64,000 nt of DNA from assembly GCA_030606335.1 (NCBI GenBank), contig JAUWGP010000002.1, positions 53,939 to 117,938 on the forward strand, read 5' to 3'. The stretch is from Caldifarciminota bacterium (GTDB lineage: Bacteria > Hydrothermota > UBA3073). This document shows positions 17,096-57,076 of this stretch, one piece after another; position 1 is the stretch's first letter; each line of letters opens with the position of its first letter. Under the pieces are notes generated by a model, which saw only the letters and a program-made list of their open reading frames with translations, had not been told where the DNA came from and searched no databases. A program made the translations under genes and the position numbers.

Positions 17096-17115
17096 GGTAT
17101 AATATTTATTATACC
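17096..17115 (-). promoter_or_regulatory. GGTATAAT palindrome before citDE
   Basis: Perfect inverted repeat with 8-base arms GGTATAAT/ATTATACC and a 4-base spacer (AAAT on the minus strand), preceded by GTAATCA and directly followed by the citDE ribosome site. Other copies are at 23951, 33880 and 40123, with partial ones at 28525 and 56772. Confidence 0.65.
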
Positions 17116-17294
17116 TGATTACACAGATGTCTATCCACTCCTGCCTGACGGTAGGTATAGATACTCAGATTTAAATATAAGTCTCTTTATTTGACAATTT
17201 TTTATTGCCAAAATAAATCAACAATACAATACAAAGTCCTAAAGCTTTTCAATAATGCGTATTTGGATTCTCTTCTTTTATCTGTGTAATCTAA

Positions 17295-17792
17295 TTAATA
17301 ATCTGTGTAATTTTTCCCTCTTAGTTTTGCACGAGTATAGGCAATTAGACCGCCTGCATCACGTATTGCAAGTATCTCTGAAGGAAGTTTTGGAAAATAA
17401 AAACGCTTTCCTGCAATCATTATTTCCCCTTTTTCCGTATTAAGTTCAACCGTATCACCATCAGAATAAGCCCTTACTGCTTCCGGACATTCTATCAGAA
17501 TAAGACCCTGATTGATTGCTGAACGGTAAAAGATTCGAGCAAAACTCTCAGCTACTACTGCCTGAATCCCAACTTCCTTCAAACCAACTACTGGTTGCTC
17601 CCTTGAACTTCCGCAACCAAAATTCTTACCCGCCAAGATAGTATCACCCTCGTTTACCCCTTTAGAAAACGAAGGGTCAAGGTCTTCCAGTATATGGGGT
17701 TTAATCTCTTCCGGTGTGCTGCAGGTATATGTGTACTTTCCCGGGAATAACATATCTGTATTAATATTGTCCCCGTATCTCCAGATTTTCAT
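17295..17792 (-). CDS. aconitase-family dehydratase, small (swivel) subunit
   Basis: 165 aa, LeuD/HacB-like. Visible motifs: DNINTDMLFPGKYTY at the N-terminus (specificity loop region), GKNFGCGSSREQPVVGL and AESFARIFYRSAINQG. Together with the overlapping large subunit (ATGA) it should form a 4Fe-4S hydro-lyase interconverting a hydroxyacid and its isomer. Candidates are isopropylmalate, homocitrate, citrate or 2,3-dimethylmalate; no leuA/leuB neighbours argue for leucine synthesis, whereas citrate lyase genes lie immediately downstream. Confidence 0.88.
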   Translation of the reverse strand: MKIWRYGDNINTDMLFPGKYTYTCSTPEEIKPHILEDLDPSFSKGVNEGDTILAGKNFGCGSSREQPVVGLKEVGIQAVVAESFARIFYRSAINQGLILIECPEAVRAYSDGDTVELNTEKGEIMIAGKRFYFPKLPSEILAIRDAGGLIAYTRAKLRGKNYTDY

Positions 17793-21556: not shown

Positions 21557-22024
21557 TTATTTCCTGTTTTTTATTTCTTTAGTTCTCTCTTGATCCTTGT
21601 CAAAAAAGGTCTCTTCTTCCAAACTCAAACTTTCTTTCTCTATTTGATAGAAGTTGTCAAATCTTTTGTATTCTAACTCTTTTTTGGCGAAATTCACTAA
21701 AAATCCAATAAGAATTTTACTCACCCTTAATTGTGATATTAATTGTGCCTTATGGTCTACATTCAACTCCTTTACTGCTTTAACTTCAACAATAACTTTC
21801 TCCTCTACTAACAAGTCAGGTACATACCTGCTGACTTCTTGAGTCTCATACATAACAGGAAATTCTTTTTCAGAATCAACTTTCAAGTCTTTGTTTAACT
21901 CAATAAATAAAGCCTTGTGGTATGCTCGTTCTAATAAACCTGGACCTAATTGATTGTGAACTTTATAAAATGCTTTAATAATTTTATTTGTAATAGGTCT
22001 GAACTCAGAATCATTCCATTTCAT
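21557..22024 (-). CDS. GxxExxY family protein 1
   Basis: 155 aa. The family motif is GPGLLERAY, preceded by KIIKAFYKVHNQL, with later EVSRYVPDLLVEEKVIVEVKAVKEL, in which D...EVKA resembles a PD-(D/E)XK nuclease core, and LRVSKILIGFLVNF. The family function is not established. The gene lies between 17-base perfect inverted repeats (21520-21536 and 22054-22070) and has its own consensus promoter. A second family member at 43.8 kb is also inside inverted repeats, of a different sequence. Confidence 0.88.
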   Translation of the reverse strand: MKWNDSEFRPITNKIIKAFYKVHNQLGPGLLERAYHKALFIELNKDLKVDSEKEFPVMYETQEVSRYVPDLLVEEKVIVEVKAVKELNVDHKAQLISQLRVSKILIGFLVNFAKKELEYKRFDNFYQIEKESLSLEEETFFDKDQERTKEIKNRK

Positions 22025-23950: not shown

Positions 23951-23970
23951 GGTATAATATTCATTATACC
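23951..23970 (-). promoter_or_regulatory. GGTATAAT palindrome before paralogue A
   Basis: On the minus strand GGTATAATGAATATTATACC, a perfect 8-4-8 inverted repeat, directly followed by AGGAGG and the start codon; preceded by GTGTAATCA. Confidence 0.7.
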
Positions 23971-24024
23971 TGATTACACCGATTAAGAGAGTTTAAAGGC
24001 AGTATTTCAGATCTCTCTTTTGCA

Positions 24025-28524: not shown

Positions 28525-28544
28525 TATCTAATATTCATTATACC
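28525..28544 (-). repeat. partial GGTATAAT palindrome
   Basis: On the minus strand AATCAGGTATAATGAATATTA is intact but the right arm is replaced by GATAC, the tail of the neighbouring foldback repeat. No ribosome site or gene follows directly. Confidence 0.5.
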
Positions 28545-28757
28545 TGATTTATTCAGAGTGGTATCTTGTTAAATCGTAGGACAAGGCTTTCTGACTGTAC
28601 CGCCTACTGTAGGGCAAGGCTTCAGCCTTGCGGAAGCAAACTTAAATGTTTACCCTACATTTTTAAATAGTCATTTAATACTATTTGAAGAATATGTAAT
28701 TCTCAATCACCATTATCTCAGTGTTCTCTGCGTCCTCTGCGGTTAAAACTCAGTGGT
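28545..28757. repeat. repeat-rich gap with a CTCTGCGG foldback arm
   Basis: No gene. GTAGGGCAAGGCTT-type words occur twice near 28580-28625, and a CTCTGCGTCCTCTGCGGTTAA arm of the ACCACAGAG family lies at about 28724-28746. Confidence 0.6.
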
Positions 28758-33666: not shown

Positions 33667-33879
33667 CATAGAATAAAAGACAACAGACCTCAGACTGTAG
33701 ACTACAGACCACATATAATATACTAAAAATAGTAAGCAGTATGTACTAAAAGAGATAACAAGAGCTAATAAAAATATTTTTCTGTGAACTCTGTTACCTT
33801 CCTGGTTAATATATTACATAACATAATTATTTAAGAGTAGAAAGATTAAAAGAGATTTGTATATTAATCTGAGTAATCA

Positions 33880-33899
33880 GGTATAATGAATATTATACC
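33880..33899 (+). promoter_or_regulatory. GGTATAAT palindrome before ade
   Basis: GGTATAATGAATATTATACC, perfect 8-4-8 palindrome, preceded by CTGAGTAATCA and followed at once by AGGAG and the ATG at 33911. Confidence 0.7.
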
Positions 33900-33910
33900 A
33901 GGAGTAGGAT

Positions 33911-35629
33911 ATGAATATAAAAGATATTATTCCCGTTGCGCTTGGCGAAGAACCGGCAGATGTCTTGATAAAGAATGCAAGAATTGTAAATGTTTTCTCC
34001 GGTACCATCGAAAAAAATAATATAGCTTTATTCAAAAAGCGGATCGCCAGCATAGGTGATTATAATCGGGGAAAAAAGGTTATAGATCTCAAGGGAATGT
34101 ACATCGTTCCAGGTCTTATCGATGCACATATTCACATAGAAAGTTCCATGCTTTCACCGAGAGAGTTCGCTAAGGTTGCACTTCTAAGAGGTACTACAAC
34201 TGTCATTGCCGACCCCCATGAAATTGCCAATGTCATTGGTCTCGAAGGTGTTGAATATATGATTCACGCGACAGAAGGAATTCCCTTAAATGTCTATGTG
34301 ACCCTTCCTTCTGCTGTGCCCTCAACCAATCTTGAAACATCTGGGGCGAGACTTGGTGTAGAGGATATGATAGGATTCCTTGAAAAACATCCAAGAATAC
34401 TCGCACTGGGAGAGGTTATGAACTATCCTGGTGTTTTAAAGAGAGACAATGAACTCATAGCAAAAATCGAACTACTAAGACATAGGTATAAAAAAATAGA
34501 TGGTCACGCACCGTCACTAACAGGGAAAAAATTAAATGCATATATTACTGCCTTTATCCGCTCAGACCACGAATGTACCGAAAAAGACGAAGCAATTGAA
34601 AAAGTAAAACGTGGTATGCAAGTTTTTATAAGAGAGGGAAGTGCAGCAAAGAATCTTAATACACTTATCGATGCCGTAGACAGCAGAAATTTTCCATATT
34701 TTTCCTTCTGCACAGATGATAGAAATCCCGTTGATATAATGAACGAAGGACATATCGATTTTATGGTGAGATCTGCTATAAAGAAAGGTGTTACCCCTGT
34801 TAATGCAATCAGAATGGCGACCATCAATACGGCAAGATACTTCAATCTAAGAAGTATGGGAGCAATAGCACCGGGTTATAAGGCAGATATGCTTGTAGTT
34901 AATGACCTTAAAGATTTCCACATTCATTCCGTAATAAAAGACTCGATAACTGTTGTTGAGGAAGGTGAGTTAATAGTAAATGTTGAGGGTATATTCCCCG
35001 AGGTAAAAGGAAGATTGGGACCAATGAATCCTAAAAGAATAAAAGAAAAGGATATTATTATAAAAGACACGGGTAAAAAAATAAGGGTAATAGAGGTTTT
35101 CTATGACACAGTTTTAACAAAGGAGCTTATTACAGAACCTACAGTGGAAGGAGGGTTGGTCGTTGCCGATCCGTACAGAGATATTATGAAACTTGTCGTT
35201 ATCGATAGATATAGAGGAGAAAATTTTACTGTGGGATTCATAAAAGGTCTCGGCATTAAACGAGGAGCAATTGGTACAAGCGTTGGACACGACTCACACA
35301 ACATTGCTATCGTCGGGGAAAACGATTCAGACATTGTCCTTGCCCTTCAAGAATTGAGAAAGATGGGCGGGGGACTTGTTGTTGTAAATAACGGTGAAGT
35401 CCTTTCAAAATTACCCCTTCATATAGCTGGTTTGATGTCTGACAAACCCCTGGAAGAGGTTGTCAAAGCTATTAACAAGATTGACAAAAGTTCAAAACTC
35501 CTTGGAATCGAGAGAGACCCATTTATGACCCTCTCATTTGTTCAGCTACCAGTCATTCCCGCAATAAGGATGACAGATAGGGGAATTGTTGATGTTAATA
35601 AACAGAGCTTCGTTTCTTTGTATATTTAG
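33911..35629 (+). CDS. ade: adenine deaminase
   Basis: 572-aa amidohydrolase of the Ade type. Metal-site motifs are PGLIDAHIHIESSMLSP near residue 68 and ADPHEIANVIG near 99; also TLPSAVPSTNLETSGARL, GHAPSLTGKKLNAY, SDHECTEKDEA, FCTDDRNP and the C-terminal GTSVGHDSHNIAIVG. It deaminates adenine to hypoxanthine plus ammonia in purine salvage, cytoplasmic. The ATG follows AGGAG and the palindrome listed above. Length is normal for the family. Confidence 0.93.
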   Translation: MNIKDIIPVALGEEPADVLIKNARIVNVFSGTIEKNNIALFKKRIASIGDYNRGKKVIDLKGMYIVPGLIDAHIHIESSMLSPREFAKVALLRGTTTVIADPHEIANVIGLEGVEYMIHATEGIPLNVYVTLPSAVPSTNLETSGARLGVEDMIGFLEKHPRILALGEVMNYPGVLKRDNELIAKIELLRHRYKKIDGHAPSLTGKKLNAYITAFIRSDHECTEKDEAIEKVKRGMQVFIREGSAAKNLNTLIDAVDSRNFPYFSFCTDDRNPVDIMNEGHIDFMVRSAIKKGVTPVNAIRMATINTARYFNLRSMGAIAPGYKADMLVVNDLKDFHIHSVIKDSITVVEEGELIVNVEGIFPEVKGRLGPMNPKRIKEKDIIIKDTGKKIRVIEVFYDTVLTKELITEPTVEGGLVVADPYRDIMKLVVIDRYRGENFTVGFIKGLGIKRGAIGTSVGHDSHNIAIVGENDSDIVLALQELRKMGGGLVVVNNGEVLSKLPLHIAGLMSDKPLEEVVKAINKIDKSSKLLGIERDPFMTLSFVQLPVIPAIRMTDRGIVDVNKQSFVSLYI

Positions 35630-40028: not shown

Positions 40029-40122
40029 ACAGACTGATTATAATGGCATAATTGCAATCTCTTTAGATCCCTGTTGAATGAAAATCTTTGTAATGTGGTG
40101 TTTTTTTATATCTGAGTAATCA

Positions 40123-40142
40123 GGCATAATGAACATTATACC
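40123..40142 (+). promoter_or_regulatory. GGTATAAT-type palindrome before a secreted hypothetical gene
   Basis: GGCATAATGAACATTATACC, one mismatch from a perfect 8-4-8 palindrome, preceded by CTGAGTAATCA and followed at once by AGGAGG and the ATG at 40153. Confidence 0.65.
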
Positions 40143-43667: not shown

Positions 43668-43741
43668 GGGCCCGTAGCTCAGTTGGTTAGAGCAGCTGAC
43701 TCATAATCAGCGGGTCGGGGGTTCGAGTCCCTCCGGGCCCA
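43668..43741 (+). tRNA. tRNA with anticodon CAT (Met, or Ile2 after lysidine modification)
   Basis: Full cloverleaf: acceptor stem GGGCCCG/CGGGCCC, D arm GCTC-AGTTGGTTA-GAGC, anticodon stem GCTGA/TCAGC with loop CTCATAA, T arm with GTTCGAGTC, discriminator A. CCA is not encoded. The body resembles elongator tRNA-Met; tRNA-Ile2 has the same anticodon, and initiator is unlikely because the 1-72 pair is G-C. Confidence 0.93.
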
Positions 43742-43759
43742 TTTTAGGACGCATTTATG

Positions 43760-43777
43760 GGACGCAGATGAACGCAG
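43760..43777 (+). repeat. inverted repeat arm, 5' side of GxxExxY gene 2
   Basis: GGACGCAGATGAACGCAG, inverted partner at 44194-44211 (17 of 18 positions). It lies 18 bases past the tRNA, and the gene's ATG is inside it. Confidence 0.82.
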
Positions 43778-44202
43778 ATAACCAAGATAATGAATTCAAA
43801 TATAAAGAACTAACTGGAAAAATTATAAAAATTTACTACAAGGTTTATAACAAATTAGGATACGGTTTCTTAGAGAAAGTATACGAAAATGCATTGATGA
43901 TAGAATTCAAAAAAGAAGGAATACCAGCAGTAGCACAAGTCCCAATTAATGTATACTATGACAATAATGAGATTATAGGCGAATATTATACTGACATATT
44001 GGTTGATGAAAAAGTCATAGTTGAAATTAAAGCAAATAAAAAGCTAATAGAAGAGAACGAGGCTCAGTTATTGAATTATTTAAGAGCAACAGACATTGAA
44101 GTAGGTTTACTACTCAACTTTGGACCTGACCCAGAATTTAAAAGAAAGGCATTTGATAATAGTAGAAAAAAGAAAATAAAGAATCCTGATGACCTGCGTT
44201 AA
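43768..44202 (+). CDS. GxxExxY family protein 2
   Basis: 144 aa with the family motif GYGFLEKVY (G..E..Y) near residue 31, preceded by GKIIKIYYKVYNKL. YTDILVDEKVIVEIKANKKL again resembles a nuclease-type D...EIK core, and LRATDIEVGLLLNFG follows. Both start and stop codons lie in the arms of an inverted repeat, and it sits directly behind a tRNA gene. Only distantly similar to family member 1 at 21.6 kb outside the motifs, so it is not a recent local duplicate. Function unestablished; nuclease role is inference. Confidence 0.88.
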   Translation: MNADNQDNEFKYKELTGKIIKIYYKVYNKLGYGFLEKVYENALMIEFKKEGIPAVAQVPINVYYDNNEIIGEYYTDILVDEKVIVEIKANKKLIEENEAQLLNYLRATDIEVGLLLNFGPDPEFKRKAFDNSRKKKIKNPDDLR

Positions 44203-44211
44203 TCTGCGTCC
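44194..44211 (-). repeat. inverted repeat arm, 3' side of GxxExxY gene 2
   Basis: CTGCGTTAATCTGCGTCC, reverse complement of the 43760 arm with one mismatch; the gene's last codons and TAA are inside it. Confidence 0.82.
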
Positions 44212-44227
44212 AAAATAGAGTAGGAGC

Positions 44228-56771: not shown

Positions 56772-56785
56772 GGTATAATATTCAG
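56772..56785 (-). promoter_or_regulatory. half GGTATAAT palindrome before the serpin gene
   Basis: On the minus strand CTGAATATTATACC is followed directly by AGGAGG; the left arm is replaced by GGCACTA. Only the ribosome-proximal half is conserved. Confidence 0.5.
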
Positions 56786-56871
56786 TAGTGCCAAAAATCT
56801 CTCAACTAATTTTTCATAAACTATAGCTTTCAAAGTAATTATCTACTTTTTGCTTGCCTCCCATCAATTCT

Positions 56872-57076
56872 TGTAGGGGTCGGATTCCTGCCCGACGGGA
56901 ATCCGACCCGTTTCTATAGAATTCTTCAAATCTTATTCTTACTACTATCGGATTGTCCTCTATATACTTACGAATATTATGTAAGGCTTTCGCGTTCCTT
57001 ATTGGCGGGTTTGATAAATCGAACCCCTACATTTTTGCTTTCATATTCTTTCATATTATTTTTCACAGTATCTAAT
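56872..57076. repeat. composite foldback repeat, copy 3
   Basis: Joins a shortened TAGGGGTCGGATTCC half with the ATTGTCCTCTATATAC...CACAGTATCTAATT half of 49965-50095. Largest copy in the window; it separates the serpin gene from the cassette-like array. Confidence 0.85.

Follow-up and report, generated by a model that had tools for sequence, protein, structure and literature searches.

A palindrome directly before ribosome sites as the probable 3′-end hairpin of a small mobile element linked to a GxxExxY gene

A 20-bp palindrome that recurs before the ribosome sites of unrelated genes appears, from the comparison of related genomes, to be the hairpin at the 3′ end of a small mobile element inserted directly 5′ of Shine-Dalgarno sequences (SDs) that already existed. 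With a probability of roughly 0.8, this is a small mobile DNA element whose GxxExxY nuclease acts on the ends of the element and on the target next to AGGAG. At the level of sequence, mobility, exact placement 5′ of the SD, the linked GxxExxY gene and the spread of defective copies may be regarded as established.

The window, a 64,000-nucleotide stretch of contig JAUWGP010000002.1 from a Caldifarciminota bacterium, contains six matches to the 20-mer GGTATAATGAATATTATACC at up to three mismatches against a mean of 0.02 in shuffled sequence, which bears out a sequence-only reading that had placed the palindrome ahead of the ribosome sites of unrelated genes. Pattern searches were run across genome G000 (candidate division WOR-3; 2.43 Mb in 59 contigs), and stretches amounting to 0.81 Mb were covered base by base. 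The nearest named record is a WOR-3 metagenome-assembled genome; Cloacimonadota, a host first suggested by the sorting domain, is wrong. At up to two mismatches, G000 holds 29 copies and the reversed control pattern none. An SD lies 0–3 nt downstream on the same strand in 22 of the 22 copies within the 0.81 Mb, and in none is it on the opposite side; an SD at this distance is found for 2.35% of random positions. The remaining 7 of the 29 copies are likewise adjacent to an SD, and all 29 have a single orientation. The genome-wide search for the distance to gene starts, which the sequence-only reading had suggested, thus finds every copy 0–3 nt 5′ of an SD, confirming the adjacency and narrowing the gap of 0–5 bases that had been claimed. 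The same rule is obeyed in the sister genome G001 (32 copies), in G003 and G004 of the same family, and in G011 of another family.

Comparison of orthologous upstream regions, also suggested earlier, reveals occupied and empty sites with an unchanged SD, showing insertion directly 5′ of an existing SD rather than to an SD carried along. G001 and G000 are about 95–98% identical in shared genes (the sister genomes are about 97% identical), and for copies present in one genome only, the ortholog in the other was retrieved with a concatenated query. Four clean pairs of empty and filled sites were obtained (L112/L068, L127/L075, L129/L079 and L137/L057). The filled site L068 reads aacaat, then AGACATCC...ATTATACC, then aggggtttt, with TATACC at the right junction, and its empty ortholog L112 reads aacaat followed immediately by aggggtttt; the L075/L127 and L079/L129 pairs show the same pattern. 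In the fourth pair, 81 nt of L057 are absent from L137, where the end of the upstream gene and the start codon overlap as ATGA, an arrangement suggesting that the empty state is ancestral. Three further pairs (L063/L125, L078/L131 and L059/L116) have only the right-hand junction in common, which is exact at the SD. A target duplication longer than A or AG (1–2 nt) is excluded in the clean pairs. Filled sites end in ...ATTATACC followed by AGGAG, and the empty sites already have the identical SD. Because the empty orthologs share the SD and the right junction is exact, the SD is the host's own, and ...ATTATACC is the end of the element. One of the two explanations first offered, a mobile repeat bringing its own ribosome site, therefore holds for the mobile repeat and fails for the ribosome site, which the empty orthologs already possess. 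At L093 (AGAACATTATACC) and L120 (TTATACC) the 3′ tip alone remains, and these two loci look like deletion scars. Random insertion followed by selection that spares only the copies directly before an SD would draw on the loss of gene-disrupting insertions that is to be expected in a gene-dense genome, but 29 of 29 copies abut an SD although other intergenic space should tolerate insertions equally, and the junctions at the empty sites are exact to the base; this explanation is very unlikely.

The complete element is about 501 nt long (501 nt in L018 and L074, 522 nt in G011) and is oriented like the gene that follows it. It consists, in order, of a 5′ hairpin (AGACATCCT..AGGATGTCT), TGATTAC, an open reading frame (ORF) for a GxxExxY protein, about 60–70 nt leading to GTAATCA, and the 3′ hairpin GGTATAATGAAYATTATACC. 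The terminal inverted repeats TGATTAC...GTAATCA adjoin the terminal hairpins; the GTAATCA word noticed earlier ahead of the palindrome is real and represents this subterminal repeat. The GxxExxY ORF lies directly 5′ of the palindrome on contigs C29 and C56 of G000, C74, C28 and C77 of G001, and C16 of G011, and it is intact on G000:C29, G001:C74 and G011:C16. Fragments of it lie by the palindrome on C19 of G000 and also in G003 and G004.

Shorter copies (471, 437, 285, 216, 173, 165, about 125, 70, 52 and 47 nt) retain the 3′ hairpin, many of them the 5′ hairpin as well, with internal or 5′ parts missing. The minimal copies of 47 and 52 nt are made of two hairpins, the 47-nt copy being just these. 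Four 216-nt derivatives with one common internal deletion are about 97% identical, and two 173-nt derivatives are 99% identical. Since the four 216-nt copies with the same deletion precede four unrelated genes, defective copies were multiplied. All copies in the 0.81 Mb keep the 3′ end, and none consists of the 5′ end only. The permanent 3′ end and the absence of the 5′ hairpin from many copies are not predicted by a two-ended DNA transposon, and they are what an RNA route would give: a read-through transcript with the donor SD would anneal via AGGAGG to a nicked SD and be copied by a borrowed reverse transcriptase, leaving a fixed 3′ end and variable 5′ truncations. Base pairing would then account for the choice of the SD as target, and the route fits L057, which is absent from the sister genome, has no 5′ part and has GAGATT in common with the host at the 5′ junction. 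It is nonetheless improbable in view of the multiplication of derivatives with both ends and the hairpins at both ends, and the 5′ loss could be a later deletion between short repeats. Two side observations concern individual copies. In the non-autonomous copies L075, L068, L078 and L017, several codons close to the end of the ORF are replaced by a short additional palindrome, ATCCGTTAGCTAACGGAT, which truncates the GxxExxY protein (LLVIR*) and resembles a second palindromic insertion within the reading frame. At L060 (G001:C97:14300) the gene behind the copy apparently starts with the unusual codon ATT (AGGAGAACAGAATTAAAGCTGCT...), as it does in the G000 ortholog L134.

The copies in the window, located by pattern search and blastn unless stated otherwise, are as follows.

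33849..33899, plus strand: element copy before the adenine deaminase gene (ade), a deletion derivative with element positions 408-436 fused to 469-501 (blastn with the 501-nt element, 100% and 94% identity)
33880..33899, plus strand: 3′ terminal hairpin of this copy, exact consensus GGTATAATGAATATTATACC
33900-33904, plus strand: SD AGGAG of ade (product by Pfam; ATG at 33911), abutting the hairpin
40105..40142, plus strand: element positions 464-501, terminating in the hairpin GGCATAATGAACATTATACC, then AGGAGG and ATG (40153)
23951..23983, minus strand: element positions 469-501, with the exact hairpin at the end
17096..17311, minus strand: decayed copy, internally deleted but retaining both ends of the GxxExxY region (blastn), element 29-75 at 17264-17311 (start of the ORF with the 5′ repeat) and element 343-501 at 17096-17254 (ORF end and tail)
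28525..28549, minus strand: copy broken at the 3′ arm (GGTATAATGAATATTAGATA)
56772..56783, minus strand: half-site GAATATTATACC before the AGGAGG of the serpin gene, the end of a Y1-type transposase remnant

The palindrome copies of the window are deletion derivatives of the 501-nt element. In the ade copy, element positions 408-436 correspond to the end of the GxxExxY ORF, its stop and the start of the tail. The palindrome at 40123 (plus strand) has two mismatches to the consensus, and the one at 17096, minus strand in the sense of the gene, has a single mismatch and precedes the SD of a citrate-lyase-like gene. The gene with AGGAGG behind the copy at 23951..23983 encodes a product with a weak, below-cut-off Por_Secre_tail match. 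Two of the sites named in the sequence-only reading need correction: the copy at 28525 is broken as described, and its 3′ end is lost with no SD following, so that it does not stand ahead of a ribosome site; the proximal half at 56772 (AATATTATACC followed by AGGAGG) is present and belongs to Y1-type transposase remnants, not to the same repeat. The region upstream of the serpin gene (56772-57000, minus strand) is a multi-copy repeat with a remnant Y1/RAYT-type transposase C-terminus, and it shares the tip AATATTATACC before AGGAGG with the GxxExxY element, although the two repeats are unrelated.

The other explanation offered at first, an operator or RNA switch common to a regulon, finds some appeal in the constant position of a 20-bp dyad ahead of the SD and in the TATAAT inside it. 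It is hardly tenable, as sister genomes differ in presence and absence of the palindrome, the target genes are unrelated, the palindrome belongs to a larger repeat with an ORF, self-complementarity is kept across phyla where TATAAT is not, and the predicted accessibility of the SD is unchanged by the palindrome. By RNA folding, the mean probability of the SD being unpaired is 0.356 with and 0.392 without the palindrome, and the hairpin occurs in the minimum-energy fold of 15 of 55 leaders. Three related roles were considered and set aside: TATAAT as a −10 box, which is not conserved across phyla while the pairing is, and for which no −35 is seen by eye; the hairpin as an insulator holding the SD open, given these pairing probabilities; and the hairpin as an aid to or control of translation, for which RNA folding gives no support.

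The ORF of the element belongs to the GxxExxY family (TIGR04256/PF13366; HMM E-value 4e-38), with scores above the curated cut-offs (130 bits versus 35 and 122 bits versus 22). The catalytic residues E28, D67, E77, K79 and Q92 are invariant in 33 of 33 sequences. In fold, an AlphaFold model (pLDDT 95) comes closest to SSO0001 (Cas4-like), Cas4, lambda exonuclease and RecB-type nucleases; a Holliday junction resolvase and a PD-(D/E)XK homing enzyme rank lower. By fold and active-site residues, GxxExxY is a PD-(D/E)XK nuclease, with the nuclease activity itself predicted. No solved structure for GxxExxY was returned by sequence search, and in the full-text literature searched the family is named in only three papers, never in a title or abstract.

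The element would move as DNA, with the GxxExxY nuclease cleaving or resolving the inverted-repeat and hairpin ends as well as the target next to AGGAG, and serving internally deleted copies in trans. The hairpin would be the end signal of the element and not a gene switch. Processing of the element ends by the GxxExxY nuclease is the likeliest arrangement in view of linkage, conservation and fold. Because an insertion between a stop codon and the following SD leaves the genes on both sides intact, the element would succeed inside operons. Several observations weigh against this reading, namely that a clear terminal hairpin is missing from about half of the elements in other phyla, that nearly every host genome contains Y1 transposases, that the terminal AATATTATACC is common to the element and to Y1-derived repeats in WOR-3 genomes, and that other GxxExxY subfamilies, such as the one at 43768-44202 of the window, do not lie before an SD.

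The main rival, possible and rather doubtful, is that an IS200/IS605-like (HUH, Y1) transposase of the same cell moves the element in trans, the element being a PATE-like passenger that carries a nuclease and the target being CCTCCT on the bottom strand, adjacent to the hairpin. Hairpins at two ends, a duplication of at most 1–2 nt, a fixed orientation and a fixed pentanucleotide-like target by the hairpin are all IS200/IS605 habits (PMC7290912). Y1 genes are found in 16 of 17 host genomes of other phyla and in all 8 genomes tested from the window's own phylum, and the Y1-derived repeats of G000 also end in AATATTATACC followed by AGGAGG. Against this, no element copy contains a Y1 gene, a Y1 match is missing from one host genome (its completeness not being stated), and the end motif of the element lies by 1 of 20 Y1 genes of other phyla versus 13–16 of 17 GxxExxY genes.

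The preferred reading, with the GxxExxY nuclease as the acting enzyme, can also be set against known systems, for which IS200/IS605 and REP features were taken from PMC7290912 and PMC8266576. The element resembles IS200/IS605 and PATEs in its end hairpins, lack of target duplication, short fixed adjacent target, single orientation and ends-only copies moved in trans (PMC7290912); it differs in having no Y1, a GxxExxY PD-(D/E)XK nuclease as sole ORF, and long subterminal inverted repeats (TGATTACACAGAT). The empty and filled pairs show a fixed short target and no target-site duplication, and hairpins occur at both ends in the WOR-3 elements and in about half of the distant relatives. No tie to Y1 (PF01797) was found, as Y1 genes lie elsewhere in the genome and the flanks of Y1 genes in other phyla carry such ends in 1 of 20 cases. 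REP/BIME sequences with TnpA-REP (RAYT) are likewise short dispersed palindromes by genes with non-autonomous copies, whereas the element lies 5′ of SDs in one orientation and its linked gene is not RAYT. None of the listed copies has the tag GTAG or CGTC at the stem foot; mostly (G)TAATCA stands before and the SD after. Bacterial MITEs (RUP, BOX, Correia, ERIC) are similar in their small internally deleted copies, inverted ends and intergenic location, and the terminal inverted repeats TGATTAC...GTAATCA agree with the classical definition. Unlike these, the element shows no TA or longer duplication (A or AG at most), targets the SD itself, and has a parent whose only ORF encodes GxxExxY and not a DDE transposase. 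The words ribosome, Shine and start codon are absent from a 2024 review of prokaryotic MITEs (PMC10969869). Free-standing PD-(D/E)XK homing endonuclease genes are also lone small nuclease genes that form selfish units with a fixed target, but homing enters allelic sites with homologous flanks, whereas the sites of the element share only the SD.

Relatives of the element are not confined to WOR-3. A protein-alignment scan gave 45 loci in a dozen phyla, the groups including Omnitrophota, Elusimicrobia, Deltaproteobacteria, Nitrospinae, Latescibacterota, Ratteibacteria, Chloroflexi, Scalindua and others. Most loci have a common plan of TGATTACACAGAT, ORF, ATCTGTGTAATCA, an optional hairpin, and the SD or start codon of a same-strand gene. 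A gene preceded by an SD lies within 160 nt at 23 of 33 GxxExxY loci versus 65 of 198 control ORFs of the same loci (p = 8e-5). The inverted-repeat motif flanks GxxExxY on the 5′ side in 13 of 17 cases and on the 3′ side in 16 of 17, with a background of 0.03 per 210 nt, and this end motif is nearly private to GxxExxY genes. The 3′ stems touching the SD occur with changed sequence (GGTATAAC with GTTATACC, GATATAAT with ATTATATC, AATATAAC with GTTATATT, TGTATAATTA with TAATTATACA, and GGTATAATC with GATTATACC). In an alignment of 11 elements, 95.5% of the cells of the 3′ stem are paired, with compensatory changes on both sides of four pairs, versus 24–54% in slid-arm controls. Anchored stems of at least 6 bp are present on the 3′ side in 10 of 23 elements versus 0.9 expected and on the 5′ side in 12 of 30 versus 2.1 expected. 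Because the hairpin is missing from many relatives, the inverted repeats are apparently more basic than the hairpins. An informative empty site in another phylum was not found at the hldE-like locus of a Deltaproteobacterium, where all three relatives have an element, and viral contigs gave no exact match to the palindrome plus AGG.

Further GxxExxY genes occur as well. The gene at 43768-44202 (plus strand) closely follows a tRNA-like gene and has perfect inverted repeats at its borders (GGACGCAGAT and ATCTGCGTCC; region 43740-44220); since the gene after it runs in the opposite direction, this subfamily does not obey the SD rule. A third GxxExxY gene of the window, at 21557-22024 (minus strand), has the repeat AATCTCTTTCAATCCCTGTTGAA in its tail, ending about 95 nt before the next same-strand gene. 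A second GxxExxY type with the ends CCACAGAG...CTCTGTGTTCTCTGTGGTTAGATTTTTGACAATAC lies about 12 nt before the SD at L103 and L183 (G001:C8) and at L187 (G003:C318), and at L103 it occupies the front of a gene that has the palindrome type in G000.

It is proposed tentatively, at somewhat short of an even chance, that GxxExxY nucleases themselves drive the mobility of a new class of transposable elements with inverted TGATTACACAGAT ends, often capped by hairpins, which need no known transposase and integrate at sites of translation initiation next to SDs. Palindromic elements targeting the SD, mobility of GxxExxY and the repeat word gattacacagatt were not described in the literature searched, a scope outside which most subscription journals fall, and the novelty of the element and of its SD targeting is therefore provisional. 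GxxExxY is a very common bacterial gene family, present in many uncultured genomes and with no known function, and a role in DNA mobility is now likely. That its members lie within mobile elements whose ends and targets are defined makes this function directly testable. Insertion directed by the SD, a targeting rule undescribed in the literature searched, lets the element settle in operons without breaking genes, and such an element would also explain the AATCTGTGTAATC-type repeats found by start codons in many metagenome-assembled genomes.
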